Virus record (IMG/VR): IMGVR_UViG_3300041809_000490
Coordinates: 1-41,745 of that record
From: a virus
Length of the DNA stretch: 41,745 nucleotides
Direction: 5' to 3' (one strand)
The translations under genes and the position numbers were made by a program. Every line of letters starts with the position of its first letter. The first letter of the stretch is position 1. Below, one piece after another: positions 27 through 17,582 of the stretch. The notes below the pieces were generated by a model that worked only from the letters and a program-made list of their open reading frames with translations, was not told where the DNA came from and ran no database searches.

Positions 27-275
27 ATGCGACAGACGACCACACAACGCGGCTATGGGACTCGCCACCAGCGTGAGCGCAAGGCTTGGAAGCCACTGGT
101 CGAACGCGGCGAAGTCTGCTGTGCCAGATGCGGAAGACCAATCCTTCCGGGCTCCCGCTGGCATCTCGGTCATGACCATCTGAATGGCGGATACGTTGGC
201 CCCGAACACGCTCGTTGCAACCTCAGAGACCGAAACCGCCGTCATCGACGCCCCAAGAGAGCCAGAGTTTGGTGA
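27..275 (+). CDS. HNH endonuclease, small, terminase-adjacent
   Basis: An 82-residue basic protein that looks like the small HNH nucleases often found beside the terminase of tailed phages, where they assist cleavage of concatemeric DNA during packaging. Visible motifs are a CARC zinc knuckle (C32, C35), the H-D-H core LGHDH (H49-D50-H51) and the closing HARCN (H61, C64, N65). The metal-binding scheme C..C-HDH-H..CN is complete, so it is probably active. No clear ribosome-binding site precedes the ATG. The 3' end overlaps the terminase gene by 92 bases in another frame. HNH assignment is firm from motifs; the packaging role is inferred from position. Confidence 0.8.
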   Translation: MRQTTTQRGYGTRHQRERKAWKPLVERGEVCCARCGRPILPGSRWHLGHDHLNGGYVGPEHARCNLRDRNRRHRRPKRARVW

Positions 276-1722
276 TCGCAGGCCGCGCATCTGCTGGATT
301 CCCGAGCACGACTACTCGATAGGCCCACGCGCGGTCGCGTTCTGCAAAGAAGTCGGACTCACGCTCGATGACTGGCAAGAGGCGATCCTCAGTGCCAGCT
401 TGAACGAAGCCGGGGATCAATGGGCCGCGCGAGAGGTTGGCGTTGTCCTTCCGAGGCAGAATGGCAAGAACGAGATCCTGCTCGCCCGCCAGCTCGTGGG
501 TCTCTACCTGCTCAACGAGCGGCTGATCGTCCACTCGGCCCACCAATGGGATACGAGCATGGAGGCCTTTAGCCGCCTGCGGGATGTCATCGAAGACTCC
601 CCCAAACTGATGGCGTCGGTCGCTCGTAAAGGGATCTCGACCTCGCACGGCTCCGAGGGCATCACGCTCGAGAACGGGCAGCGGATTCGCTTTCGCACCC
701 GAACTGGCGGCGGCGGTCGAGGCTTCACGATCGACTGCTTCATGTTCGATGAGAGCATGTATCTGGCCGAGATGTTCTATGCGGCCCTGCGACCAACCCT
801 TCTCGCAAGACCGAACACGCAAATCTGGCTGGTGGGTTCAGCGGTGGACAAGGAGGTCCACGAACACGGGGTGGTTCTCGCAAGGATGCGCGAGGCTGGT
901 ATCTCCCAAGCGGAGGAAACCCTCTACTTCGAGTACTCGATGGAGGGGGACAACCCGGACCTCGTTCCCGACCATCTCCTCGAAGACCCGATCGAACTCC
1001 GAAAGGCGAACCCGGCGCTGGACAGACGGATCGACCTGAAGAACCTGCTCTCGGCCAAGCGCTCGATGTCGGCCCGTGGCTTCAAGGTCGAGTGCGGCGG
1101 CATCGGAGATTGGCCGCGCACGGACGGTCTCGAGGGTGTGGTCATAACCCCCGAAGCATGGGAAGGGTGCCTTGATCCAGATTCGACGGTCCCGGGGCGC
1201 GTGTGCTTCGCCGTGGACAGCGACCCGATCGGTGCCCGGAGTGCGATCTGCATGGCGGGCTTCCGCGCAGACGGGCTGGCGCATGTGGCTGTGGTGGAGT
1301 CCCGCAAGGGCACGGGCTGGCTCGTTGAGAAACTCGCGGAGCTCGTGGCGGAGCACAAACCCGTCTCAGTCGTGCTGGACGGAATGAGCGGAGCGTTCGC
1401 CGAGGCGCCGGCGCTCACCGAAGCCCTGGAAAACAGAGGGCTCCTCGCCTACCTGAAGGAGCCCGAAGTCACGGTCCTAGGCTCTCGGGAGCACGGGCAG
1501 GCCTGCGGCATGTTCCTCAATGCCGTGCAGGAGAGGACCCTTCGCCATATCGGCCAGCCCGAGGTCGATGAGGCCCTCCGCGGCGCGGCCAAGAGCAACA
1601 TGACCGACGCCTGGAAATGGAGCCGCAAAGACTCCACGGTCAACATCACCCCCCTCGTGGGTTGCACCCTTGCTCACTGGGCGATCCAGACCGCAGACTT
1701 CGGGGAACCTCACGTCTATTAG
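184..1722 (+). CDS. terL: Terminase large subunit
   Basis: DNA-packaging motor, 512 residues from the ATG at 184. The N-terminal ATPase shows a Walker A of the type common in actinophages (PRQNGKN, residues 90-96), a Walker B (CFMFDE, 185-190) and a coupling motif (WLVGSA, 215-220). The C-terminal RNase H-like nuclease shows acidic candidates in FAVDSD (D345), VVLDG (D399) and the SRKDST block (D483). The motor docks on the portal, moves DNA into the prohead and cuts it. The start overlaps the HNH gene by 92 bases; a later start is possible because the first 35 residues look non-conserved. No small subunit gene is recognisable in the window. Confidence 0.95.
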   Translation: MADTLAPNTLVATSETETAVIDAPREPEFGDRRPRICWIPEHDYSIGPRAVAFCKEVGLTLDDWQEAILSASLNEAGDQWAAREVGVVLPRQNGKNEILLARQLVGLYLLNERLIVHSAHQWDTSMEAFSRLRDVIEDSPKLMASVARKGISTSHGSEGITLENGQRIRFRTRTGGGGRGFTIDCFMFDESMYLAEMFYAALRPTLLARPNTQIWLVGSAVDKEVHEHGVVLARMREAGISQAEETLYFEYSMEGDNPDLVPDHLLEDPIELRKANPALDRRIDLKNLLSAKRSMSARGFKVECGGIGDWPRTDGLEGVVITPEAWEGCLDPDSTVPGRVCFAVDSDPIGARSAICMAGFRADGLAHVAVVESRKGTGWLVEKLAELVAEHKPVSVVLDGMSGAFAEAPALTEALENRGLLAYLKEPEVTVLGSREHGQACGMFLNAVQERTLRHIGQPEVDEALRGAAKSNMTDAWKWSRKDSTVNITPLVGCTLAHWAIQTADFGEPHVY

Positions 1723-1865: not shown

Positions 1866-2179
1866 GGGGTCCTTTCGTTAGGCTGCAAAGGCTTCGTGAG
1901 TTCGCGTTCGTCTTCTAAACGATCCCTTAGACTGCGAAATCTGTCGTAGCTGAGTTTTCCTCGAAGGACTTCCCCCCGCACGCGGTTGTAGAAGTTCGCC
2001 TCGGGCCGTCCGCTGGCTCGCCGCGCTAGGTCGAAGTACGTCGTGATGGGTGTCTGGCAGCAAAGTTCCCACCAGTCACTCAGTTCAAACTCGTGGGCCA
2101 AGTAGTTCACTAGGCCACGCGCGCCGCCAGGAGGCATCTGTCTCTCTGGAGGAATGTAGCTGCGGTCCTTTTCGACCAT
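1862..2179 (-). CDS. Reverse-strand hypothetical protein (105 aa), moron-like
   Basis: A 105-residue protein encoded against the direction of all neighbouring late genes, between terminase and portal. I do not recognise the family. The composition is protein-like: an aromatic patch (ELSDWWELCC), then a basic/acidic helical C-terminal half, with no signal peptide, membrane segment or zinc motif. A GGAGG lies 14 bases before the ATG (longer than ideal), inside what would be the portal leader. Its ATG is complementary to an ATG on the plus strand at 2178, which is probably not the real portal start. A single reverse gene in a late operon fits a moron carrying its own expression signals, but I see no clear promoter. 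Confidence 0.55.
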   Translation of the reverse strand: MVEKDRSYIPPERQMPPGGARGLVNYLAHEFELSDWWELCCQTPITTYFDLARRASGRPEANFYNRVRGEVLRGKLSYDRFRSLRDRLEDERELTKPLQPNERTP

Positions 2180-2219
2180 GGCTGGAGTCTACGCCTCCAA
2201 GCCCCCTAGAGGAGGCCCC

Positions 2220-3563
2220 GTGTTCGAGAAAAGCCCGATCGGAGCGCTCAAACGTCTCGGCGCCCTCAGGGAGCTGGAAAAGCGCGGAGCCAACCCCTAC
2301 CTCGAATGGGGCACAACGGCACCGCCGCCTCCGGGAAGCGTTGGAGGAACGGTCGGCGGGATCTCGGTCACGACCGAATCCGCCACCCAGATCGCGGCGG
2401 TCTACGGCTGCGTTAGCCTCCTAGCCGACTCGGTTGCATCGCTCCCCCTCAGAGCGCTGGATAAGCCGGCCAACCAGATCGACGCCAAGGAGATCGACCT
2501 ACCACCGCTCCTCGAGAATCCCTACGAGCTGATCTCCCCCACCGACTGGTGGGTGGGCTTCATCTGGGCGCTGGCGCTCAGGGGCAACTACTTCGGCCAG
2601 ATCGTGGAACGGGACGGCCTCGGTTACCCGACTCAGATCATGCCTGTGAACCCGGATATCGTGCGCCCGCAGGTCGAAGCCAATGGCGAAGTCCACTGGC
2701 TCTATGCGGGCAAAGAGATCCCGGACGATGACGTGTTCCATGTCCGCTACCAGTCGATGCCCGGACACCTGCTGGGCCTGAACCCGATTCAGGTCATGCG
2801 CTACAGCTTCGGACTGGGCCATGCACTCGACATCCACGCCGAGAAATTCTTCGAGAACTCCTCAGCTCCCGCTGGCGTGATCCAGACCAAGCGGGAACTG
2901 AACGAGGACTCCGCGAACAAAATGAAAGCTTCCTGGGACTCCAAATTCCAGGGCCTGACCAACTCGTCCAAAGTGGCGATCTTGGACAATGAGTCCGAAT
3001 TCAAGCCGATCTCCCTCAACGCAGCGGACCAGCAGCTCCTCGAAAGCCGCAAATACTCCGCAGAGGAAATCTCAGGCATCGTCTTTCGCATCCCACCCCA
3101 CATGGTGGGCCTGAACGAACGCTCCACATCTTTCGGCAGAGGCATTGAGCAGCAGGAGCGCGGCTTCGTAGCCAACACCCTCTCCGGCTACCTGTGCAGG
3201 GGCGAACGCGCCATGACGGCCCTGCTCCCGGAGGGCAAGTACGCGAACTTTGACGTGAGTCACCGCATCAGGGGCTCAGAACTCGAACGCGCTCAGACCG
3301 CGTCCTTCCTCATGCTCGCCGGAGTCTTCACGCCCAACGAGTCCCGCGGGCGGTTCTTCGACATGCCCGCACTGCCGGACGGCGATGAGCTGTCGCTGCC
3401 ACAAAACACGGAATTGCTCGAACAGGCCCTCGAGGCCCTCAAGAAATCCGAAAAGGAAAAGGAAGAACCGGACCAGCCGCCTCAGATGGTCATGCCCGGA
3501 ATGCCACCGCCTGCCACCAACGGCAAAGGCAAGAAGCAGAACGTCCCAGTCCCGACCAAGTAG
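2220..3563 (+). CDS. Portal protein (HK97-like)
   Basis: Forms the dodecameric DNA channel at one vertex and binds the terminase. I place the start at GTG 2220 because AGAGGAGG (2208-2215) sits five bases upstream; an in-frame ATG at 2178 has no such site and would collide with the reverse gene. This gives 447 residues, normal for HK97/phi-type portals. Typical features are the early TAVYGCVSLLADSVASLPL-like helix (here QIAAVYGCVSLLADSVASL), the WWVGFIWALALRGN segment, the ILDNESEFKPIS beta region and the EEISGIVFRIPPHMVGL stretch. The C-terminus is Pro/Met/Lys-rich and likely disordered. The protease gene follows directly. Confidence 0.92.
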   Translation: MFEKSPIGALKRLGALRELEKRGANPYLEWGTTAPPPPGSVGGTVGGISVTTESATQIAAVYGCVSLLADSVASLPLRALDKPANQIDAKEIDLPPLLENPYELISPTDWWVGFIWALALRGNYFGQIVERDGLGYPTQIMPVNPDIVRPQVEANGEVHWLYAGKEIPDDDVFHVRYQSMPGHLLGLNPIQVMRYSFGLGHALDIHAEKFFENSSAPAGVIQTKRELNEDSANKMKASWDSKFQGLTNSSKVAILDNESEFKPISLNAADQQLLESRKYSAEEISGIVFRIPPHMVGLNERSTSFGRGIEQQERGFVANTLSGYLCRGERAMTALLPEGKYANFDVSHRIRGSELERAQTASFLMLAGVFTPNESRGRFFDMPALPDGDELSLPQNTELLEQALEALKKSEKEKEEPDQPPQMVMPGMPPPATNGKGKKQNVPVPTK

Positions 3564-3569
3564 GTGCCC

Positions 3570-4742
3570 ATGACTGACGAGAGCGAGCCGCGGCGAGACT
3601 TCAGCCAAGCCGAACGGGACAAGATGGCCAAAGCCGGAACGGCGCTTCCAGATGGCTCATTCCCGATAGCCAATGTCTCAGACCTCAAAAACGCCATCTC
3701 GGCCTACGGGCGAGCGGGCAACAAAGCCGCAGCGAAGGCTCATATCATCAAGCGGGCCAAGGCCCTCGGACGCTCTGACCTCATCCCGGAAGAGTGGCGG
3801 GCCTTCGAACCCGGAGAGCCTGACGCGGACAACATGGGCGGCCCAGACGACGGAGACTCGGACACCTGCTCAACCTGCGGCGGAAGCGGGGAAACGGATA
3901 TGGGCCAATGCCCGGACTGTCAGGGCTCGGGGTCTCCCAAAGGCGAAAGCATGATGGGTGGGCCAACGGAAGGAAACAGCGCCATAGACGACGCAGAACG
4001 GCGCGCTAACGCCCCGGACCGGCTCAGAGGCACAATCGAGCGCCGCAGCTTCTCCACGGATGGAGCGGAGATCAGAAGCACCGCAGACGGCGGATTGAGG
4101 TTCTCGGGCTACGCAAGCACCACAGAAACTCCCTACACAGTCGGTGGCTTCGAGGAGACCTTCGCCAAGGGAGCCTTCAAGCGCTGCCTGAACAGCGAAC
4201 CGGATGTCTGCTTCCTGGTCAACCACGAGGGCCTGCCGCTGGCCCGCACGACCTCGGGGACGCTGACACTAACCGAAGACTCCAGAGGGCTGAAGGTGGA
4301 CGCCGATCTGGACCCGAGCGACCCGGATGTGCAGGCGATCCTGCCGAAGATGAAGCGGGGTGACCTGACCGAAATGAGTTTCGCCTTCAAGGCCACCGAT
4401 GATGAGTGGTCTGACCGCGACACCAAACGACTCGTTCGCAGCGCAACGATCCACAAAGGCGACGTATCCGTAGTAACCCGAGGGGCAAATGGGGCAACCT
4501 ACGGCTCCATCAGAGCGCTGGTGGAGGACTTCGAGCAGCGGGCAGGCAAACAGAACTCCAAGAAGGACCGCACTGAAATCGAGGAGGCCATCGAGAAACT
4601 CAAAGGCCTGCTGGCCAAGGAAGAAACGCAGGCTGAGGCTGAGGTTCAGGCTCAGACAGAAGGCGAACTGAAAATCAGCGTCCTTCGCTCAGAGCTGGAC
4701 GTGGCAAGAGCCAAGCGGGCGCGACTCGGGAGGACGGCATGA
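3570..4742 (+). CDS. HK97-family prohead protease with DnaJ-like zinc motif
   Basis: Maturation protease (peptidase U35 type) that trims capsid proteins inside the prohead. ATG 3570 is preferred over GTG 3564 because AGTAGGTG precedes it. The protein has 390 residues in three parts: an N-terminal helical domain (about 10-75), a cysteine pair block CSTCGGSG...CPDCQGSG (C100, C103, C114, C117) resembling the DnaJ zinc finger, and the protease domain (about 150-320). Catalytic candidates are H219 in LVNHEG and S270 in LTEMSFAF, with an acidic/basic patch at KGDVSVVTRG. The C-terminus is a charged coiled coil, possibly the scaffold. The zinc block is unusual for this family. Confidence 0.9.
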   Translation: MTDESEPRRDFSQAERDKMAKAGTALPDGSFPIANVSDLKNAISAYGRAGNKAAAKAHIIKRAKALGRSDLIPEEWRAFEPGEPDADNMGGPDDGDSDTCSTCGGSGETDMGQCPDCQGSGSPKGESMMGGPTEGNSAIDDAERRANAPDRLRGTIERRSFSTDGAEIRSTADGGLRFSGYASTTETPYTVGGFEETFAKGAFKRCLNSEPDVCFLVNHEGLPLARTTSGTLTLTEDSRGLKVDADLDPSDPDVQAILPKMKRGDLTEMSFAFKATDDEWSDRDTKRLVRSATIHKGDVSVVTRGANGATYGSIRALVEDFEQRAGKQNSKKDRTEIEEAIEKLKGLLAKEETQAEAEVQAQTEGELKISVLRSELDVARAKRARLGRTA

Positions 4743-5917
4743 CTGAGCTGATGGAGGCACCTGAGCTCATGGAGGACCGGGGCATCGAAACGGCTGAGAT
4801 GGACGCCAAACGCACCCTCTCAGAGCCGCTTATCTACCGGGTCTCAGAGCGCCGCTCCTACTTCAAAGACCTCTGGATGCGCCGCCAAGACGATCCGGAG
4901 GCCCGCGAGCGCCTCGAAACTCACGGGCGCCAGATGGCCGACCTTCCGAAAGAGAGCCGCGAGTTCGAACTGGACGGCCTTGAATACGAGCGACGGGTCA
5001 ACCCGAACCTCGAAACGGGTCACGGCTCCGAATTCGCACCTCCGCTCTGGATGAACCAGGAGTTCGCCACCGGCAGGCGCACCGGCACCATCCTGCAAAG
5101 GTTGGTCCCGACATTCGACCTTCCCAAAGGCGTCTCATCGGTCAACCTGCCCCGAATCACGACTGGCACCGAGGTCGTTCCCCAGGTCCCGGGAACTGCG
5201 GTCAGCGAAACCGAACAGACGACGAAAACGGTCACCTCACAGGCAGTCGTGTTCGCCGGCATGTCCGACTGGAGCATCCAAGCGCTCGAGCAGTCCCCCG
5301 CCGGCGCACACCTCGACTGGGCGATCTTCAAGGACCTGACCGAATCCTGCGACGAGCACGTCGAGCGGGCAATGATCGGCGGAACGGGCGAAAACTACCA
5401 GTTCTACGGGCTCTACAACATCTCCGAAATCGGGGAAGTGACCTACACGGCCAAAGAACCGACCGGCACCGCGATGGTCCCCTACATCGGCCAGACGATC
5501 GCTCAGGTGGGCATCAAACGCAAACGGCCACCGGAAGCCCTGCTGATGAGCACTCCGCGAGCGGCATGGATCTGCACCTCCGAGGACAACGCCAACCGTC
5601 CCCTCTCGATCGAAGACTACCCGGGCTCGGACTTCCCCCGCTTCGGCTTCGCAGGCTACGGGGTCTACCTCGATGATGCCGTGCAGAACGTCTACGGCTC
5701 CAAAGCAGAACAGGACACGATCATCGCCTGCCGACCCAAGGACATGATCATGCTCGACACCCCAAGCCTCACGATGGTGGCCGAAGACGTGCTCTCGGGG
5801 ACGATGGAAGTCCGCTTCCAGCTCCACCGCACCGTCGCGGCCCTGCTCGGCAGATACCCCTCGGGGATCGCAAAGCTCGTGGGCACCGGCATGGTGCCGG
5901 TCTCGGGGTTCCACTGA
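4739..5917 (+). CDS. Major capsid protein 1 (HK97 fold)
   Basis: Shell subunit of the icosahedral head, 392 residues, overlapping the protease stop by four bases and preceded by GGGAGG. About 75 N-terminal charged residues form a short delta-like region. The mature-like domain begins near YERRVNPNLETGHGSEF and continues with APPLWMNQEF, a long E-loop segment rich in Val/Thr (TEVVPQVPGT) and the A-domain/P-domain helices. The C-terminal block with FQLHRTVAALLGRYPSG is the usual HK97-type ending. It is clearly homologous to a second capsid gene at 6747, sharing the ERR-NP-ETGHG-EF-PPLW block and the TEV-PQ segment. Which one builds hexamers cannot be told from sequence. Confidence 0.9.
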   Translation: MTELMEAPELMEDRGIETAEMDAKRTLSEPLIYRVSERRSYFKDLWMRRQDDPEARERLETHGRQMADLPKESREFELDGLEYERRVNPNLETGHGSEFAPPLWMNQEFATGRRTGTILQRLVPTFDLPKGVSSVNLPRITTGTEVVPQVPGTAVSETEQTTKTVTSQAVVFAGMSDWSIQALEQSPAGAHLDWAIFKDLTESCDEHVERAMIGGTGENYQFYGLYNISEIGEVTYTAKEPTGTAMVPYIGQTIAQVGIKRKRPPEALLMSTPRAAWICTSEDNANRPLSIEDYPGSDFPRFGFAGYGVYLDDAVQNVYGSKAEQDTIIACRPKDMIMLDTPSLTMVAEDVLSGTMEVRFQLHRTVAALLGRYPSGIAKLVGTGMVPVSGFH

Positions 5918-6222
5918 TGCCCGTCGTAGGCAACAAAACCAACGTCCTCGGGGAACAGAACCCGGGCAAAGTCAAAGTTAAACACTCGGGCTCGACGGTC
6001 GTCATCAAAGAAAACCTCAACCGCCTGGGTCTCGAAATCGTCAATGGGGGTGCCAACACGGTCTACCTCTACCCCGGCAAAACGGCGGTGGAAGAAGAAG
6101 GCATCACCCTGGCGGCCAACGGGGGGAGCTGGAACGGCCTGATCGGGAACATGCTCTGGACCGGAGAAATCACCGGCATCGCGGCCACGGCCGAAACGAC
6201 CATTCAGGTGGTGGAGGTCTGA
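5917..6222 (+). CDS. Small beta-rich head protein (possible capsid decoration)
   Basis: A 101-residue protein starting at the TGATG overlap with capsid protein 1. It is rich in beta-prone segments: VVIKENLNRLGLEIVN, NTVYLYPG, EEGITLAANG, then LWTGEITGI and TTIQVVEV. This pattern (N-R-x3-L-x-I-x-N, then V-x-L, GI-L, and a final G-x-I-x-A-I) recurs in small structural proteins beside phage capsid genes. It could decorate the shell or be the base of a head fibre. Function is inferred from size, fold propensity and position only. Confidence 0.6.
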   Translation: MPVVGNKTNVLGEQNPGKVKVKHSGSTVVIKENLNRLGLEIVNGGANTVYLYPGKTAVEEEGITLAANGGSWNGLIGNMLWTGEITGIAATAETTIQVVEV

Positions 6223-6662
6223 TGGCTGTTAGAAACCCCGGTGGCACTCCGGGCAATGAATCCGTCACGACCGCCATGCTGGCGACCGGAGCGGTCACAG
6301 AACGCACCATCGCGGCGGCGAACGTCACAGCGCCGAAGCTCAACGCTCCTAACCAGCCAGCAACACCAGCAGGAGAAAACGAAATCGCGGGGGCCTTCAA
6401 CAGTGCGATACGTTGCAGCATCACGGTCTTGACGGGCAACAACTCCGAAACCAAATTCAAAATCAAACATCTGCTGAACAACACGAGAATCGCTTGTGTG
6501 ACGGCGCTGAAGATGACGACCAAAGTCGCCACGGAACCCTACCTCGAAGCCGCCGGAGCCGGGAACTACACCTGGAAAATCCTCAGTGCCACAGAAGTCG
6601 AAGTCATCTTCGGGACAGCGCCCGGGGCGGCGGCTGAAGTTCTCATCATGATTCTTGGTTAG
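6222..6662 (+). CDS. Head-module fibre-like protein with C-terminal domain shared with the 23097 tail fibre
   Basis: A 146-residue protein overlapping the previous stop by one base. The N-terminal third is Ala/Thr/Pro-rich with repeated VTTAMLATGAV / TERTIAAANV phrases, as in fibre shafts. The C-terminal 75 residues, starting at TKFKIKHLLNNT and ending LIMILG, match the last 75 residues of the fibre at 23097-24377 (TSYKIKHSLETQ to VTIVG), sharing KIKH, the central GAG and the terminal beta strand. The domain is probably a small beta sandwich used at a fibre tip. A head fibre or decoration role is inferred. Confidence 0.6.
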   Translation: MAVRNPGGTPGNESVTTAMLATGAVTERTIAAANVTAPKLNAPNQPATPAGENEIAGAFNSAIRCSITVLTGNNSETKFKIKHLLNNTRIACVTALKMTTKVATEPYLEAAGAGNYTWKILSATEVEVIFGTAPGAAAEVLIMILG

Positions 6663-6746
6663 TAGCACCACCGCGTTGGACCCCGCTCTCTGAGCCGGAC
6701 ACCGCCCGGAATCAACAGAAACCAACCCGACCGGGAGGTCGAACCC

Positions 6747-8441
6747 ATGTCAGAGACAGCCACACCGACGCTCCTGGAGGACCTCCGGGACAAACGATCA
6801 ACCCTCGCGGGCGAACTCGACACCCTCATTGACGAGCGCGAGTCAGCCATCGCGGAGATCGAGGCGCGCACCGCGGATGCGGATGAGGAGCAGCGCACAG
6901 CAGACCAGCAGGCCGCTGACGACTTCAACAGCGCCGTCAAAGCCCTCGAGGCCGACATCGCACCCCTTGACCAGCGCATCGAGCACCAGGAAGACAAAGA
7001 GAAGCGGAGGACGAACGCAAACCGAAGCCCGGTCGTGGAGATCACCCACGAACCGTCGGTCTACCGCAAGGACAACGCCTCACAGCTGTCCTACTACAAG
7101 GACCTCCTCTGCACGCACTCAGAACTCCGCCACCTGGCACCCCGCGGAGCGGCCGACCGCATCGAGTCCCACCGCAAAGAGTCAGAACTGCGTGGGGAGA
7201 AGCGCGAAGCCGAGAACCAGCACAAGGCGGAAGGGAAGATCGAGCAGGCCGAGAAAGAGTTCCGCGCATCCTTCACCGGTCTCTCCGGAAGCCTCAACGA
7301 GAACCCCTTCGAGCGTCGTGCCAATCCCTCCAGGGAAACAGGCCACGGCGGCGAATTCGTCCCCCCGTTGTGGCTGGTGGAGGATGACTTCATCCCGGCA
7401 CTCCGTGCCGCGAGGGTCATCGCCCCGCTGTGCCGCAACCTGCCGGTCCCTCCGGGGACGGACACGATCAAACTCCCGAAGATCAAGCTCGGCACGGAAG
7501 TAGCGCCGCAGCTCGCGGATAACGCCGGGGTTGCCTCGAGGGACGTCGAAACCGAATACGTCGAAGCGGCTGTGAAGACGTTGGCGGGCCAGGAGGACGT
7601 GGCCATTCAGCTGATCGAGCAGTCGCCGGGACAGGTGTTCGACCGGGTGGTGCAGGAAGACCTCCTGATGGACTACCACCTGAAGCTCGACCGCGAAGTC
7701 TCCTTCGGGCAGGGCACGAACTACACGACCCTGAACGCGGGGACGATCCGCGGACTGTTTCCCGGAACGGAATGGGGCGCAGGTTTCCGCACATCGGCAA
7801 AGACGCTGGAAGAATTCCCGAGCATCTGGCTCATGGGTCTGAACGCCAACTGGTCGCACATCGCCAAGGAACGGTTCGACGTGCAGAACGTCCACCATGT
7901 CATCAACCCGGCGTTCTCGAGCTGCCTCGCCTCGCTGACGGATGGAGCCAAAAGCGAAGCCGGACGTTTGTTCATCAACGCCTCGGATTTCCCGAACTAC
8001 AACATCTCGGGCGAGATGGCGGCAAACACGGTCGCTGAGGGACACTTCCTTCAGACTCCGCTCGGACCGAACATCTACCACTCGGCCAACATCCCACCGA
8101 TCCTGCCGCAGGCCAAAACAGAAAAGGGCGAACAGAAATCCATCCTGTTCGCGGCCAACAAAGAACCGAACAAACTCACCACCTCGGGCACGGAAGCCTA
8201 CAGCTATGGCCTCACGGCCAAGTTCGATGACATCTGGTTCTTCGAGTCGGACCTGAGGACGCGAGTCCTGCCTGAGGTCCTGTCAGGAACGCTCCAGATC
8301 CGCTTCCAGGTCTACGCCTACATCAGCCTCTTGGTGCGGTATGGGCCGAGCCTCCAATTCTGCGGTGGCAAATCATGGAAAGTCGCCGGCGGATTCGCGG
8401 AAGCACCCGTCGAACCGGCACTCGCCGAATACAAGTTCTAA
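6747..8441 (+). CDS. Major capsid protein 2 (HK97 fold, long delta domain)
   Basis: Second capsid protein, 564 residues, preceded by GGGAGG. About 190 N-terminal residues are a charged coiled coil (delta/scaffold-like), much longer than in capsid protein 1. The body begins at FERRANPSRETGHGGEF, followed by VPPLWLVEDDF and TEVAPQLADN, each aligning with the corresponding blocks of the 4739 protein. It then carries an insertion-rich A domain and ends with LSGTLQIRFQVYAYISL, matching LSGTMEVRFQLHRTVAA of the paralogue. Both copies are intact, so neither is a pseudogene. In phages with two shell proteins one often forms the vertices; that role here is speculation. Confidence 0.88.
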   Translation: MSETATPTLLEDLRDKRSTLAGELDTLIDERESAIAEIEARTADADEEQRTADQQAADDFNSAVKALEADIAPLDQRIEHQEDKEKRRTNANRSPVVEITHEPSVYRKDNASQLSYYKDLLCTHSELRHLAPRGAADRIESHRKESELRGEKREAENQHKAEGKIEQAEKEFRASFTGLSGSLNENPFERRANPSRETGHGGEFVPPLWLVEDDFIPALRAARVIAPLCRNLPVPPGTDTIKLPKIKLGTEVAPQLADNAGVASRDVETEYVEAAVKTLAGQEDVAIQLIEQSPGQVFDRVVQEDLLMDYHLKLDREVSFGQGTNYTTLNAGTIRGLFPGTEWGAGFRTSAKTLEEFPSIWLMGLNANWSHIAKERFDVQNVHHVINPAFSSCLASLTDGAKSEAGRLFINASDFPNYNISGEMAANTVAEGHFLQTPLGPNIYHSANIPPILPQAKTEKGEQKSILFAANKEPNKLTTSGTEAYSYGLTAKFDDIWFFESDLRTRVLPEVLSGTLQIRFQVYAYISLLVRYGPSLQFCGGKSWKVAGGFAEAPVEPALAEYKF

Positions 8442-8468: not shown

Positions 8469-9149
8469 ATGTCAGATCTCGTATCGGGCAGGTACATGCA
8501 GCAGAACCCGCAGTGGGGGTTCACCGGACAGACCGCCAACGCCTATCAGTCGGACCTTCCCTGCGTTTGCACCTTGGCGCAGAACGGCAACCCGGCTGTC
8601 GGCGCAACCGGCGCGGCGCTGGTCACGAAAGAAGCCATCTTCCAGCCCGTCTTCTTGGGAGAAGGCTACGTCATCAACGAAATCGGGATCGGGGTCACCT
8701 CCGAAGCGGTGGAAACGACGGCCCATGCGTGGGTTGCCGTCTACCAGGGCGTCGGTGTCAAGGAAGGCGAAGAACTCAAGTCATCGCTGGTGGGCCAGAG
8801 CAAAGACAAAACGGGCTCGGCCTTCGAACCGGGGGCGGAAGGCCCGACGCAGTTCTTCGCTCTGGAAAGCCCGATCGTGGTGTCGCAGTCAAATGCGCCC
8901 CATGGTTATGTCTACGTCGCGGTCTACCTCTCGGCGTCCGGCAAAATCGGCAAATTCCTGACCGTGACGACGAATGCCACCAAAGTCCAGAACTACAAAG
9001 CCTCCTCGGGGCTGAAAGTCTACCCCTGGATTGCCAACCAGCCCCTGATGGCATTCAAGAGCAAACCGACCACGGATGAAGGAACGGCCGAAGCCAAAAT
9101 CAAGGAAATCGTGGACGTGACCGTCGCACCGGTCCTTTGGATCAAGTAG
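8469..9149 (+). CDS. Structural hypothetical protein after capsid 2
   Basis: A 226-residue protein with a strong site AAAGGAGAAC before its ATG. It is beta-rich, with segments such as YVINEIGIGVTS, HAWVAVYQGVGV and GYVYVAVYLSASG that look like a jelly-roll or fibre-head domain, and a Lys/Ala-rich C-terminus ending APVLWIK. I do not recognise a named family. Its position parallels the small proteins after capsid protein 1, so it may be a decoration or head-fibre component. Confidence 0.7.
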   Translation: MSDLVSGRYMQQNPQWGFTGQTANAYQSDLPCVCTLAQNGNPAVGATGAALVTKEAIFQPVFLGEGYVINEIGIGVTSEAVETTAHAWVAVYQGVGVKEGEELKSSLVGQSKDKTGSAFEPGAEGPTQFFALESPIVVSQSNAPHGYVYVAVYLSASGKIGKFLTVTTNATKVQNYKASSGLKVYPWIANQPLMAFKSKPTTDEGTAEAKIKEIVDVTVAPVLWIK

Positions 9150-9416: not shown

Positions 9417-9536
9417 ATGGAGCGGGTAGTCCCCGAGAAGCCACACCCCAAAGGACCCAAGCGATGGTGTGAGCACGGGTTCCACCCCGATAGATGCCTC
9501 TCTTGTCAGGAGGAGCGCGAATGGCTGGCTCCCTAA
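9417..9536 (+). CDS. Very small CEHG/CxxC protein
   Basis: A 39-residue candidate, ATG 9417 with GAGGA upstream, one base after the 9137 gene stop. The C-terminal half carries RWCEHGFHPDRCLSC, a compact Cys4/His2 arrangement that could bind zinc. It overlaps the next gene by 16 bases. An in-frame TTG at 9390 is an alternative start. Plausible, but short enough to be uncertain. Confidence 0.45.
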   Translation: MERVVPEKPHPKGPKRWCEHGFHPDRCLSCQEEREWLAP

Positions 9537-9883
9537 CGCTGGGCGGAATGGCCGACGGCCTCCTGATCGGCAACATAGACATCGGACCCCTGACCATCGC
9601 GGGCAAACGGGCGATCGGAGAGGTGCTGGAAGTCACCCTCGAAGCCAACGTGGACTACGTGGTCAAGGTCCCAAGCGAAGCTGTGGCCTACGCCCTGACC
9701 TTCACCTTCAACACCACCGGAGCGGCAACCGAAGTCAAAGTCGGCTCCAACCTCGTGACCACGGCCAACGGGATGCCACTGGCAGCTCAGGGCTTCTTCG
9801 CGGCACCGCTGCTGTCGAGCATCACCGAAGTCAAGTTCAAGGCGGTGAGCCCTCCGAGCGCTTTCCAGCTGGTCTTCGTATGA
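9521..9883 (+). CDS. Beta-rich structural hypothetical protein
   Basis: A 120-residue protein; ATG 9521 is chosen because AGGAGGAG lies just upstream. It consists almost entirely of alternating beta-prone stretches (VLEVTLEANVDYVVKV, YALTFTFNTTG, TEVKVGSNLV, SSITEVKFKAVS) with no charged coil, signal or Cys. This looks like a decoration or fibre-base sandwich domain. It overlaps the tailspike by ATGA, so the two may work together. Confidence 0.65.
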   Translation: MAGSLTLGGMADGLLIGNIDIGPLTIAGKRAIGEVLEVTLEANVDYVVKVPSEAVAYALTFTFNTTGAATEVKVGSNLVTTANGMPLAAQGFFAAPLLSSITEVKFKAVSPPSAFQLVFV

Positions 9884-12183
9884 CCTTCGACAAGCATAAG
9901 AACTTCGCCATAGGCCAGGTTCTTACGCCCCCCTCACCGGCCACCTCAGGCACCTCTCTGACCCTCGAAACCGGTCAGGGTGCCCTGATGCCCGAAGCCC
10001 CCTTCAACGCCGTCTGCTGGCCCCCAAACGAAAAGCCGCTCTCGACCAACGCGGAGGTCGTGCGGGTCACGCACATCGCCACAGACATGCTGACGATCGA
10101 ACGCAAACAGGAGGGCTCGACAGCCCAGTCGATCGCAAGGAACTATCAGTTCTCGGACGCGATCACGGCCAAAGACATAACGGCCATCGAGGAACTGGTC
10201 AACGCAGCTCAGCTTGTTGTCAACGTCAAGGAATTCGGAGCCACGGGCAACGGCTCGACAGACGACACGAAAGCCATCGAAGAAGCGATTGCCTCGATCC
10301 AATTGCTCGCGGGCACCGTCTACTTTCCGCGCGGCACCTACCTGATCAAAAAAACGCTGTCGATCGCGGGCGGCACGAGACTGGTCGGTGCGGGCTGGGG
10401 GTCGAAGATCATCGCGGGGTCCGGGATCGGCTCAGAAAAACCGATGATTCAGATGGAAAGAGGTCCCTCACCGTTCCTGCCGGGCCGCGACGGAGGCGGC
10501 TCCCCGCCGAAACCTGGCGAAGGCGGTGATGTCGGCATCGGGATCGAACACCTCACCATCGACGGTGGTGGCGTCAGCAACGGACGCTGGGGCATCCTCT
10601 TCTGCCCGAACACCCCGGAATACCCCGTCACCGTACGCGGCTGTGTCATCAACGACTGCAACATCCAGAACTGCCATATCGGCATCCGCCACGTCAACGA
10701 CCAGGGCCTGAAGGTCCACAGCACGTACCTCCAGTTCAACGATATCGGTGCCTACGCGACCGACAACTCGCAGCTCGCGTCCTACGACTTTTGCCAGTTC
10801 CGCAACAACAACACGGTCGGGACACTCCTTGAGTCAAGCTCAACTTACGGCGCGGGACAGACCGATGTCATCTACGGATTCCTGTTCACCCGATGCAGTT
10901 GGGAAAACAACGTCGGCAAGGCCATCATCCTCGACGGCGCTGAGGAGACGACGTTCAACGCCTGCAAGTGGGAGGCCAACGAAGGCGACTACCTGACCCA
11001 GCAGCAGATCAACGGCATCGACCACCCGAGCGAACCATGCGGCGGGATGATACTGATAAACCCGATATTTGAGGGCACGGAAGCGGGCCACTTCCAGCTC
11101 AAGACGACAGCGGGATCGGGCCTGCTGATAATCGGCGGTCGCTTCCGCGCCAGCTCAGGCGAAGGTGTGAGCTTCTGGGCGGGCGACTCGGTGCTCACCA
11201 TCGGGGCGCTCATCGAATCGACCATCACCGATCCCGGCCACGTCCACCACGCGCTGGGAGGAGCGCCCACCGCACAGGAATTCCGGGAAAAAGAAGGAAC
11301 GCTCCTCTACAAGACCCTGACGCTCGAACACTCTCCGCTGTCTTACTGGCGGATGGACAAAACCACGAGCGCTGAAGACCTCGGTTCCGTCAAACTCAAC
11401 GGCACGCTCCACGGCTCAATCCCTTTGCAGGGCGGCGCTCTGCGGCCTGGTGCCGACTTCGACCCGGCCAACAAGTTCACGAAGAACAACGCCAACTACT
11501 TCTCGCTTGAAGCCAACGCGGGTCTGAACCTGACGAAAGCGCTCACGGTCGAGGCGTGGATCTACCCAACCGTGGCGGCAGAAAATGGCGTGGGCGCCAC
11601 GATCTTCGAGAAGACGGTCGGCGGCAACACGCACACGGCTTACGCGCTCTGCAACGACGAAGGCAAAATTCGAGGGGAGCTGGTCAAGGAAGGCACCCCC
11701 AACTACGCCATCGCCGTCAAACAGATGTCGCTAAACGTCTGGCACCACGTAGCGATGACATACGACGGCACCACGCTCCGCGTCTACGAAGATGCGGTGG
11801 AAGTTGCCAAAGCGACAGTTGCTGAACCGATCCACGGAGGCTCCGGCGAATCCATCATTGGGGCAGCGCAGCCGGGAGCGCCCGAACGATACAACCCCTT
11901 CGGCGGGGGTATTGACGAGGTCGCCGTCTTCGGCACGGCGCTCTCCGCGACTGTGATCCGCGAAAAACACGAAGCGGGCCTAGGCTTGCTGGAACCCGCG
12001 ACCGAAGTCCTGCCAGCTGTCTACATTCCCTATCCAGCTGGCTACAGCCCTGAAGAAATCACCGAACCGGCGGCTTTCGCAGCAGGTACTCATGGCTTCA
12101 ACACCGAAGCCGAAGCGAAAGCGATGCGGGAAGATCTGGCCAAAGTCATCGCCGCCGGCAAAGTATTGGCGCTGTGGAAATAG
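9880..12183 (+). CDS. Tailspike-like protein: pectate-lyase beta-helix plus LamG domain
   Basis: A 767-residue receptor-binding or depolymerase-type protein. An N-terminal adaptor (about 1-110, with the fibre phrase MLTIERKQEGSTAQSI) leads into a pectate lyase 3-type beta-helix. That helix is opened by VKEFGATGNGSTDDTKAI and VYFPRGTYLI, with parallel-helix turns to about residue 450. A concanavalin-like LamG domain follows (about 485-710), recognisable from SYWRMD, LTVEAWIYP, WHHVAMTYDGTTLRVYEDA and GGIDEVAVFGTALS. Such proteins bind or cleave surface polysaccharide; no catalytic residues can be assigned by eye. The ATG overlaps the upstream stop. Its place between capsid and connector genes is unusual for a tailspike. 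Confidence 0.85.
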   Translation: MTFDKHKNFAIGQVLTPPSPATSGTSLTLETGQGALMPEAPFNAVCWPPNEKPLSTNAEVVRVTHIATDMLTIERKQEGSTAQSIARNYQFSDAITAKDITAIEELVNAAQLVVNVKEFGATGNGSTDDTKAIEEAIASIQLLAGTVYFPRGTYLIKKTLSIAGGTRLVGAGWGSKIIAGSGIGSEKPMIQMERGPSPFLPGRDGGGSPPKPGEGGDVGIGIEHLTIDGGGVSNGRWGILFCPNTPEYPVTVRGCVINDCNIQNCHIGIRHVNDQGLKVHSTYLQFNDIGAYATDNSQLASYDFCQFRNNNTVGTLLESSSTYGAGQTDVIYGFLFTRCSWENNVGKAIILDGAEETTFNACKWEANEGDYLTQQQINGIDHPSEPCGGMILINPIFEGTEAGHFQLKTTAGSGLLIIGGRFRASSGEGVSFWAGDSVLTIGALIESTITDPGHVHHALGGAPTAQEFREKEGTLLYKTLTLEHSPLSYWRMDKTTSAEDLGSVKLNGTLHGSIPLQGGALRPGADFDPANKFTKNNANYFSLEANAGLNLTKALTVEAWIYPTVAAENGVGATIFEKTVGGNTHTAYALCNDEGKIRGELVKEGTPNYAIAVKQMSLNVWHHVAMTYDGTTLRVYEDAVEVAKATVAEPIHGGSGESIIGAAQPGAPERYNPFGGGIDEVAVFGTALSATVIREKHEAGLGLLEPATEVLPAVYIPYPAGYSPEEITEPAAFAAGTHGFNTEAEAKAMREDLAKVIAAGKVLALWK

Positions 12184-15432: not shown

Positions 15433-15594
15433 TGGGCGAGGTTATCGGCATAGCTGGGACTGCGTGACGCTCTACTTCAACGAGACCGAAAGGCCCTTCA
15501 CAAGTCCCTGTGGGGTGCCGATCCGTTGGACTATCGGGAGAAATGGCTGGCGCTGAGGAAGCGACTCAAAGTAGAGGCGGAGGCTCCCGCGTGA
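15432..15594 (+). pseudogene. Frameshifted small gene (needs +1 shift)
   Basis: Starting at ATG 15432 (overlapping the previous stop) the reading MGEVIGIAGT stops after 11 residues at 15465-15467. The +1 frame continues, from just after a TAG at 15451, with a coherent charged helical sequence (RDALLQRDRKALHKSL, then DPLDYREKWLALRKRLKVEA) to a stop at 15592-15594, but has no start codon of its own. Removing one G from the GGG in ATAGCTGGGACT joins the two into about 53 residues. This may be decay after the adjacent endonuclease inserted, a sequencing error, or a programmed +1 shift. Confidence 0.45.
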
Positions 15595-16069
15595 GGTAGT
15601 GCATGGCACGCTCCAATCCCTTCGCAGAGTCGCCAAAGACCCCGAGGGCAGTGTTGCACCGAAAGCAGAGTAGACCACGGATAACGCCAGTCTCGTGGCA
15701 GTGGTCCGGGGCCAACCCTTTGCGACCGTTGCCAAAGGTCGGACGCACAAGAGCGCAGATGGCACAGCGACCCTCCTGAGAGGCATAGAGCGCCATGTAT
15801 TGCTCGACGGTCAGGTTGATCCCTTTGGACTTCCAGCTTGTTTCTGCTGTGCGCTCAGGGTGGTTGGCGTAGTAGCGACTCATTCGACTCCGGTCCTGTT
15901 TGGCTTCACGAGCCTTTTTACGGGCTGGCGTGAGGCGATGGTAGTAGCGGTTTCCCCGAGCGCGGTTGCTACAGCGCTTGGAGCAGTAGAGCTTGGTCTG
16001 GCCGTAGGAACTGTCGGCCACCACGGCGACGTTGGTGCATTTCGGATTAGCGCAGGGACGTATCGGCAT
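15566..16069 (-). CDS. Recombination endonuclease VII-type (HNH/His-Me finger) nuclease
   Basis: A 167-residue free-standing nuclease on the reverse strand, between tail terminator and sheath. The N-terminal half has a Cys pair set (C6, C11, C29, C33) like a zinc ribbon. The C-terminal half shows the endonuclease VII core: RCAICALV (C102, C105), LAPDHCHETG (D122, H123, H125), then RGLLCFRCNTALGVFGDS (C135, C138, N139). This family includes T4 gp49, but small free-standing copies in phages usually behave like homing nucleases. The upstream -10 lies so close to the ATG that the message would be leaderless. Confidence 0.88.
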   Translation of the reverse strand: MPIRPCANPKCTNVAVVADSSYGQTKLYCSKRCSNRARGNRYYHRLTPARKKAREAKQDRSRMSRYYANHPERTAETSWKSKGINLTVEQYMALYASQEGRCAICALVRPTFGNGRKGLAPDHCHETGVIRGLLCFRCNTALGVFGDSAKGLERAMHYLTREPPPLL

Positions 16070-16103: not shown

Positions 16104-17582
16104 ATGACCAAACTCGGAGTTGAAGTATTGACATCGGAGACCCCGCAGTCTGCGGGCACCTCTCAGTTCACGGGCCAGCTGTTCGCCACGGTGGCGGCAG
16201 AGTATGGCCCGGAAACCACGACTCTCGTTCGCTCTCTCAACGAATTCGTGCAGCTCTACGGCCCGAGGGAAGCCACGACGCTCAAAGGCTACGACGCGGT
16301 GAACGCCTTCTTTGCTCTCGGTGGCCAGCGCTGCTATGTCTCCCGCTGCCTCGGCGCCTCAATCGCGGCGGCCAAAGTCGAACTGGAAACCACGAGCACC
16401 GCCAAAACGCTCGTCCTTACCGCGAAGTACAAGGGCGCCTACGGCAACAAAATCAAATACGCGGTGATCGAAGCGGAATCCAAAACGCAGCTGGTCATCT
16501 ACAACCCCGAAGGCGAAATCCTGACCAAATCGCCGCTGTTCTCCAAAGCCTCGGAACTGCTCGAATGGGGCAAAGAAGCGGCGAACGAAGTCTACGTTCT
16601 CATCACCGAAGGCTCAGGCTACTCATCGGGCAAAGCCGAACTGGTCAAAAAAGTCACGCAGACGACGCTCTCCGGTGGGGTCAACCCGACGACGAACAAA
16701 GCCGAAACGGTCAAAGCGATCGAACTCCCGGCCAAGGCTCTCGGCCCGGGACAGATGCTCTGCACGGTCCCCACAACCCAGTTTGAATCCGGCGTGTGGA
16801 CGGCGATGGCAGAACAGGCGCTGAAAACCAATCGCTTCGCCCTCGCGGACATGAAAAAGTCCGAAGAAGCCTCCAAGACGGTGGCCGAACTCAAGACCGA
16901 AAAAGAAACGGCCACCTTCTCAACGCTGCTGGGTCAGTACATCGCGTTCTTCTCCACAGCGGTCAAAGCCACGGGCCTAACTCTTGGGACCGAACGCACG
17001 ATCGCAGCGAGTGGAGTGGCGGCGGGGCTCATGGCCAAAGTCGCCTCGGGTGGAAACGACAACCGCGCGCCCGCAGGCCCGCGCTGGCCAATCTCCCCGT
17101 TCGTCATTAGTCTGGTCAACACGTACACCGAAGAACAGCAGAACGAACTCAACACGGCGGGCATCAACAACATTTCAGAACGCCACGGCATCCTGTGCCT
17201 GTTCGGAGACGTGACGGCGACCCCGCAGACCAAAGACCTGATCTTCTACCAGTACAGCTCCAGCCGCGAGCGCATGAGGCTCGTGGCAGAAGCCGAAGAA
17301 ATCGCGGAACGCTTCCTGTTCGCAACCCTCGACGGACGCCACCAGAAACGGGCCAAGTTCCAAGGCGAACTCCAGGCCCTCATCAAAGCTCATTGGGAAG
17401 TGGACGCCCTTTACGGCGAAACGGCAACGGAAGCAGGCAAGGTCATCGTGGCCGAACCCGTCAACACCCCGACGACCGAACAGGCCGGCGAACTCAACGC
17501 CGAAATGATCGTCCGCATCTCGCCCGTCGCATACGCGGTCAAAATCTTGATCGTGGCTACACCAATCACCGAAACTGCATGA
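16104..17582 (+). CDS. Contractile tail sheath protein
   Basis: A 492-residue sheath subunit, with AGGAGGT upstream. N-terminal landmarks of the family are present: GQLFATVAAEYGPETTTLVRSLNEF, the YGPREATTLKGYDAV block, and FFALGGQRCYVSRCLG. The C-terminal conserved domain includes RLVAEAEEIAERFLFATLDG, KFQGELQALIKAHWEVDALYG and a final MIVRISPVAYAVKILI strand that augments neighbouring subunits. Extended sheath surrounds the tube and contracts on host binding. This gene fixes the phage as a myovirus. Confidence 0.95.
   Translation: MTKLGVEVLTSETPQSAGTSQFTGQLFATVAAEYGPETTTLVRSLNEFVQLYGPREATTLKGYDAVNAFFALGGQRCYVSRCLGASIAAAKVELETTSTAKTLVLTAKYKGAYGNKIKYAVIEAESKTQLVIYNPEGEILTKSPLFSKASELLEWGKEAANEVYVLITEGSGYSSGKAELVKKVTQTTLSGGVNPTTNKAETVKAIELPAKALGPGQMLCTVPTTQFESGVWTAMAEQALKTNRFALADMKKSEEASKTVAELKTEKETATFSTLLGQYIAFFSTAVKATGLTLGTERTIAASGVAAGLMAKVASGGNDNRAPAGPRWPISPFVISLVNTYTEEQQNELNTAGINNISERHGILCLFGDVTATPQTKDLIFYQYSSSRERMRLVAEAEEIAERFLFATLDGRHQKRAKFQGELQALIKAHWEVDALYGETATEAGKVIVAEPVNTPTTEQAGELNAEMIVRISPVAYAVKILIVATPITETA

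Follow-up and report, generated by a model that had tools for sequence, protein, structure and literature searches.

Two intact and diverged major capsid proteins, A and B, were found in a single head module of a tailed phage. We propose that an old gene duplication in an actinobacterial tailed-phage lineage gave two paralogues that were both retained for one head, B as the hexon-forming major capsid protein and A as a minor component, most likely the vertex protein, and we assign this reading a probability of about 0.55. The window, i.e. the whole stretch of DNA that was analysed, is the 41,745-base IMG/VR-type virus record IMGVR_UViG_3300041809_000490, which derives from an environmental virus of bacteria. 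The following genes of the window are relevant here.

184-1722, plus strand: terminase large subunit (phrog_9, E 1.9e-64)
2178-3563, plus strand: portal protein (Pfam Phage_portal, 1.3e-71; phrog_12)
3564-4742, plus strand: head maturation protease, S78 type (Pfam Peptidase_S78, 1.3e-28; phrog_80, 8e-45)
4739-5917, plus strand: capsid protein A, 392 aa (Phage_capsid, phrog_2263, AF2/Foldseek fold match)
5917-6222, plus strand: 101-aa protein after A (homologues in loci L005, L006, L008 and L054; no family match)
6222-6662, plus strand: 146-aa protein between A and B (homologue only in the L005 phage, also L009)
6747-8441, plus strand: capsid protein B, 564 aa (phrog_2263, Phage_capsid, AF2/Foldseek fold match)
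8469-9149, plus strand: 226-aa protein after B, founder of a family marking pair-bearing loci
16104-17582, plus strand: tail sheath (phrog_23, 2e-24)

The head module is arranged in the order terminase, portal, S78 protease, A, two small proteins, B and the 226-aa protein, and is followed on the 3' side by a tail-spike-like protein and head-tail connectors. The stop codon of the protease gene overlaps the start of A. The tail sheath gene indicates that the phage has a contractile tail; directly before it lies an endonuclease VII-like gene (15566-16069, minus strand; phrog_307, E 7.5e-27), opposite in orientation to the neighbouring structural genes. A long ORF (9469-12183, 904 aa) with pectate-lyase-like and LamG domains is overlapped in a different frame by a 129-aa ORF (9494-9883). 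Because the latter resembles conserved genes of L005 (7322-7681) and L006 (13008-13367), it is probably the real gene at this position, with the spike-like gene starting further downstream. The protease contains, at about 3865-3940 and preceding its catalytic domain, a zinc-ribbon-like stretch (CxxCGGxGxxxxxxCxxCxGxG; DnaJ-type, weak match), which is also present in the L006 protease.

The first-pass annotation had described A and B as two intact, diverged HK97-fold capsid proteins of 392 and 564 residues, and this was borne out by the family matches, the intact frames of both genes and the predicted structures. Each gene starts at an ATG (4739 for A, 6747 for B) behind a strong Shine-Dalgarno-like sequence, GGGAGGA and GGGAGGT, respectively. 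Protein A matched Pfam Phage_capsid above the cut-off (2.3e-7) and the PHROG major head protein phrog_2263 (7e-13); B matched phrog_2263 at 1.5e-26 and Phage_capsid at 2.8e-5, which is 0.1 bit under the cut-off. The blocks ERR-x-NP-x2-ETGHG-x-EF-x-PPLW, TEV-x-PQ, LSGT and RFQ, said to be shared by the two, were located in both. Protein A consists of a pro-domain of about 95 aa and a core of about 297 aa, and B of a pro-domain of about 200 aa with long predicted helices and a core of about 364 aa with an enlarged A domain. An artefact or frameshift of one gene was rejected, as the frames are intact and were found again in independent contigs; an intein, an intron or a split gene was likewise rejected, as either copy spans the whole capsid family and the differences run throughout.

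Structure prediction, which had been suggested as a check on whether one protein lacks the HK97 fold, returned this fold for both. The AlphaFold2 model of A, calculated from an alignment with relatives, had a mean pLDDT of 80.6 and a pTM of 0.79 and is predicted to retain the full HK97 fold, i.e. the N-terminal extended arm, the long helix and the C-terminal strands. The model of B, obtained in the same way, was of moderate confidence (mean pLDDT 72.3, pTM 0.53) and was least certain in the N-terminal part and the enlarged A domain. HK97-type shells (HK97, D3, phiXacJX1, GTA, Mycofy1) topped the Foldseek lists against the PDB for both models, with the best matches for A to D3, phiXacJX1 and HK97 (E 1e-14 to 1e-13) and for B to phiXacJX1, D3 and HK97 (E about 1e-12; 7e-13), and the TM by target was 0.65-0.80 for many matches. 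Profiles of the A and B families searched against the PDB found HK97 gp5 and three other phage capsid/head proteins, and no T4 capsid chain; no T4 entry occurred among the best 50 fold matches of either model. By profile comparison, the sequence homology of A and B to gp23/gp24 was not above that to other HK97-fold families. Foldseek rank was unusable for identifying a vertex copy, as the HK97 pentamer chain (G) and the hexamer chains scored alike with both models. At the level of sequence families and predicted models, these results confirm A and B as intact HK97-fold major capsid proteins.

Next, the distribution of the pair was determined by scanning viral and genome contigs and counting the capsid ORFs per locus. 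One A and one B were found in at least 22 distinct loci (at least 27 contigs), besides near-duplicates and L166-L168; the search for other phages with the same pair thus yielded more than twenty other uncultured viruses. Among full records, A and B were present in 13 of 13 of the pair type (the B match of G002 being in two pieces), and a single match was obtained in each of the 12 comparison records of the single type. The window's subgroup (L005, L006, L008, L011, L013, L014, L015 and L054) has the order portal - protease - A - B, and subgroup 2 (L019, L023, L024, L055, L058, L060, L062, L064, L070, L084 and L129) has the order portal - A - protease - B. Across the pair loci, A often adjoins the portal or protease gene. 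In L017 and L018, from one metagenome, the pair is reversed, with the large copy B first and the small copy A second. An A-type gene with no visible B was observed in L016 (3172-5114, with a protease and a tape-measure-like gene after it) and in L181 (4300-5520, adjoining a terminase). Such contigs may stem from phages or satellites that use no capsid protein other than the A type, or may be incomplete, with B lying outside the sequenced part.

Every genome with the pair is a fragment from an uncultured source, and L129 comes from a metagenome-assembled Actinomycetes genome. A tblastn search of 50,697 phage records with A, B and a subgroup-2 A detected no cultured phage with the pair; the only matches were to 57 Mycobacterium phage records, at one place each. 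In class, order and phylum samples of bacterial genomes around the positive metagenome-assembled genome, adjacent copies were found in that genome only. The host of the pair lineage is probably a member of the Actinobacteria.

The two proteins were then compared with each other. The alignment of A and B showed 26% identity over nearly all of A (E 2e-28). The median length of the pro-domain (residues before the GGEF-x-PPLW block) was 92 in A, 152 in single capsid proteins and 188 in B, so that the pro-domain of A is roughly half that of B and clearly shorter than in the single proteins. The length of the A domain was 126 in A, 132 in the single proteins and 149 in B. Between A and B, the first core part (identity 0.36) and the C-terminus (0.39) were more alike than the A domain (0.24); the corresponding values among the single proteins were 0.49, 0.47 and 0.43. 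Divergence thus peaks in the A domain, mostly through change in B, whose A domain also differs from subgroup to subgroup. In HK97-fold shells the A domain lies around the capsomer axis, and its divergence fits a specialisation by capsomer type; since the change is mainly in B and varies between subgroups, it does not by itself assign either copy, including A to the vertices.

Directly before the core, A and B of the pair lineage have in common the motif E-x-R-[VAT]-N-P-[NS], and no E-x-R-x-N-P was seen there in the related single capsid proteins examined. Identity in this junction was 0.66 between A and B of the same phage and 0.60 in shuffled pairings (p 0.0007 overall); by subgroup, the excess had p values of 0.04 in subgroup 1 and 0.22 in subgroup 2, and the overall signal is partly shared ancestry of the subgroups. 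The S78 protease gene adjoins the pair, and the motif is the predicted maturation junction of both proteins; judged from the sequences, processing of both by one protease would be the simplest reading.

A maximum-likelihood tree of 67 sequences, whose root was not fixed, placed all 23 A-type copies on one side of a branch with support of 100/99. On the other side were the B copies together with single capsid proteins, those of other actinophages, and the support for B as one clade was only 68/73. The A of one phage was closest to the A of another phage and not to its own B. Path distances of A and B from the same phages were correlated (r 0.86, reached in 0 of 5000 permutations), strongly in the window's subgroup (r 0.92) and weakly in subgroup 2 (r 0.27, 417 of 5000 permutations), where some exchange is possible. 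The rate of evolution is somewhat higher in A (median distance ratio 1.2 relative to B), and close relatives gave dN/dS values of 0.14-0.16 (A) and 0.07-0.12 (B), which points to purifying selection on both. The correlated distances and the separate A clade indicate, on the evidence of the sequences, that the duplication is old and that both copies were inherited together from then on; as the root was not fixed, A may instead descend from an older sister line and have been acquired. A recent duplication is contradicted by the 26% identity and the deep matching clades.

Small beta-rich proteins had been noted after each capsid gene. This holds for the window, with proteins of 101 and 146 aa behind A and one of 226 aa behind B, but most of the lineage shares only the 226-aa family. 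The 101-aa protein is conserved in only a part of the window's subgroup. Of the 21 pair loci whose downstream sequence was long enough, 17 contained the 226-aa family, compared with 3 of 117 single loci (Fisher p 3e-15, a value that overstates independence because the loci are related). It lies directly after B in most pair loci, and two or three tandem copies occur in L005, L054 and L166. The 226-aa protein had no match in Pfam, PHROG or the PDB; a decoration or other head protein would be our guess.

Codon bias was compared as an indicator of likely amounts. In length-matched comparisons, B had the stronger bias of the two capsid genes in 18 of 22 phages (p 7e-4) and also exceeded the portal gene in 15 of 17 and the protease gene in 17 of 19, whereas A was indistinguishable from portal and protease. 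The window itself runs against this trend (A 0.414, B 0.365). The stronger bias of B and the similarity of A to portal and protease suggest that B is abundant and A scarce.

In the proposed explanation, B would still sit at the usual capsid-gene position and supply the bulk of the lattice, i.e. the hexons; its scaffolding pro-domain is long and its A domain enlarged. Protein A would have lost about half of its pro-domain and become a minor shell component, most likely as pentamers at the eleven non-portal vertices. Both proteins would co-assemble in one shell, and the single adjacent S78 protease would trim both at the E-x-R-x-N-P junction. A division of the gp23/gp24 kind explains most of the observations, since A has the shorter pro-domain and codon usage of the minor type, and a canonical B would be free to change its A domain. 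Of the three roles raised in the first-pass annotation, namely a mixed shell, a vertex protein and a capsid-size switch, the vertex role is favoured because A looks minor and derived, and the size switch found no support.

A mixed shell, in which A and B share the same capsomers or many lattice positions with no strict vertex role, would resemble the two-component encapsulins. Family 2B encapsulins, which come mostly from Actinobacteria, are mixed HK97-fold shells with irregular tiling (PMC12407261), and the junction and core common to A and B are in line with such packing; however, the identity of only 26% and the unlike lengths of pro-domain and A domain make interchangeable packing less likely, and the codon bias suggests unequal amounts. 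We regard this arrangement as unlikely. Somewhat less likely still, A could be an HK97-fold accessory head protein that is not a shell tile, acting internally, near the portal or as an assembly factor. Its codon bias like that of low-copy head proteins and its frequent position next to portal or protease would suit this role, but the predicted model has the complete fold, from the extended arm to the C-terminal strands, and the core is as conserved as that of real shell proteins.

The use of A and B in different particles, through a switch of capsid size or shape or a second particle type, appears improbable. Two complete capsid genes within one module would permit it, but with a pro-domain of about 92 residues A may not scaffold a head alone, a second portal or protease is absent from the module, and the region scanned showed no promoter-like site as a sign of separate control. 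Least probable is a redundant or decaying second gene, left by recent duplication or acquisition and having no virion function: the somewhat faster evolution of A is in its favour, but the pair is conserved over deep divergence, with dN/dS of about 0.15, intact frames and matching trees.

The closest parallel to the hexon/vertex division proposed here is T4, in which gp24 is about 20% identical to gp23 and forms pentamers, and in which the cleaved propeptide is 10 residues in gp24 and 65 in gp23 (PMC9958956). T4 has been named as the only virus whose two HK97-fold proteins have distinct structural roles (PMC12407261; PMC13185644), and our literature search for other phages with two capsid paralogues returned only T4 and its kin, and encapsulins. 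Similarly, A and B are two HK97-fold paralogues per phage that are kept in a lineage (about 20-26% identity in the two systems), the copy that appears minor and derived has the shorter propeptide, a head protease is encoded in the module, and the tail is contractile. Unlike the T4 proteins, A and B belong to the HK97 gp5 / phrog_2263 family, the relatives with a single capsid gene are actinophages from a different family, the module has an S78-type protease, and a vertex position is, for A, a proposal. As no family-level homology to the T4 pair was found, the simplest reading is that the A/B pair is a parallel case arising from a separate duplication, not a member of the T4 group.

Among cultured phages, A and B are both closest to the single capsid proteins of mycobacteriophage clusters J and Y (Courthouse, Bipper, prophiGD43A-5), which belong to the same sequence family and have the same portal - protease - capsid order. 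These phages encode a single capsid protein each, with about 25-32% identity to A or B, and have long tape-measure genes; no tail sheath is annotated in the stretch examined. Family 2B encapsulins also encode two HK97-fold shell proteins together and are frequent in Actinobacteria, and their Enc1 and Enc2 form separate groups (PMC12407261). However, these encapsulins form T=1 nanocompartments that hold cargo enzymes, they lack a portal, terminase and tail, and their shell proteins are far more alike than A and B and tile randomly; the window encodes a terminase, portal, protease and tail sheath.

In summary, we consider the chances about even that this pair represents an independent second hexon/vertex split in HK97-fold phages: a widespread, uncultured and probably Actinobacteria-infecting lineage would have a dedicated vertex protein, drawn from a family whose studied members all use one protein for both capsomers, together with a third head-protein family found almost only with the pair. 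If this is true, repeated duplication can give rise to vertex proteins, and one capsid gene per virus would be an unsafe assumption in metagenome counts.
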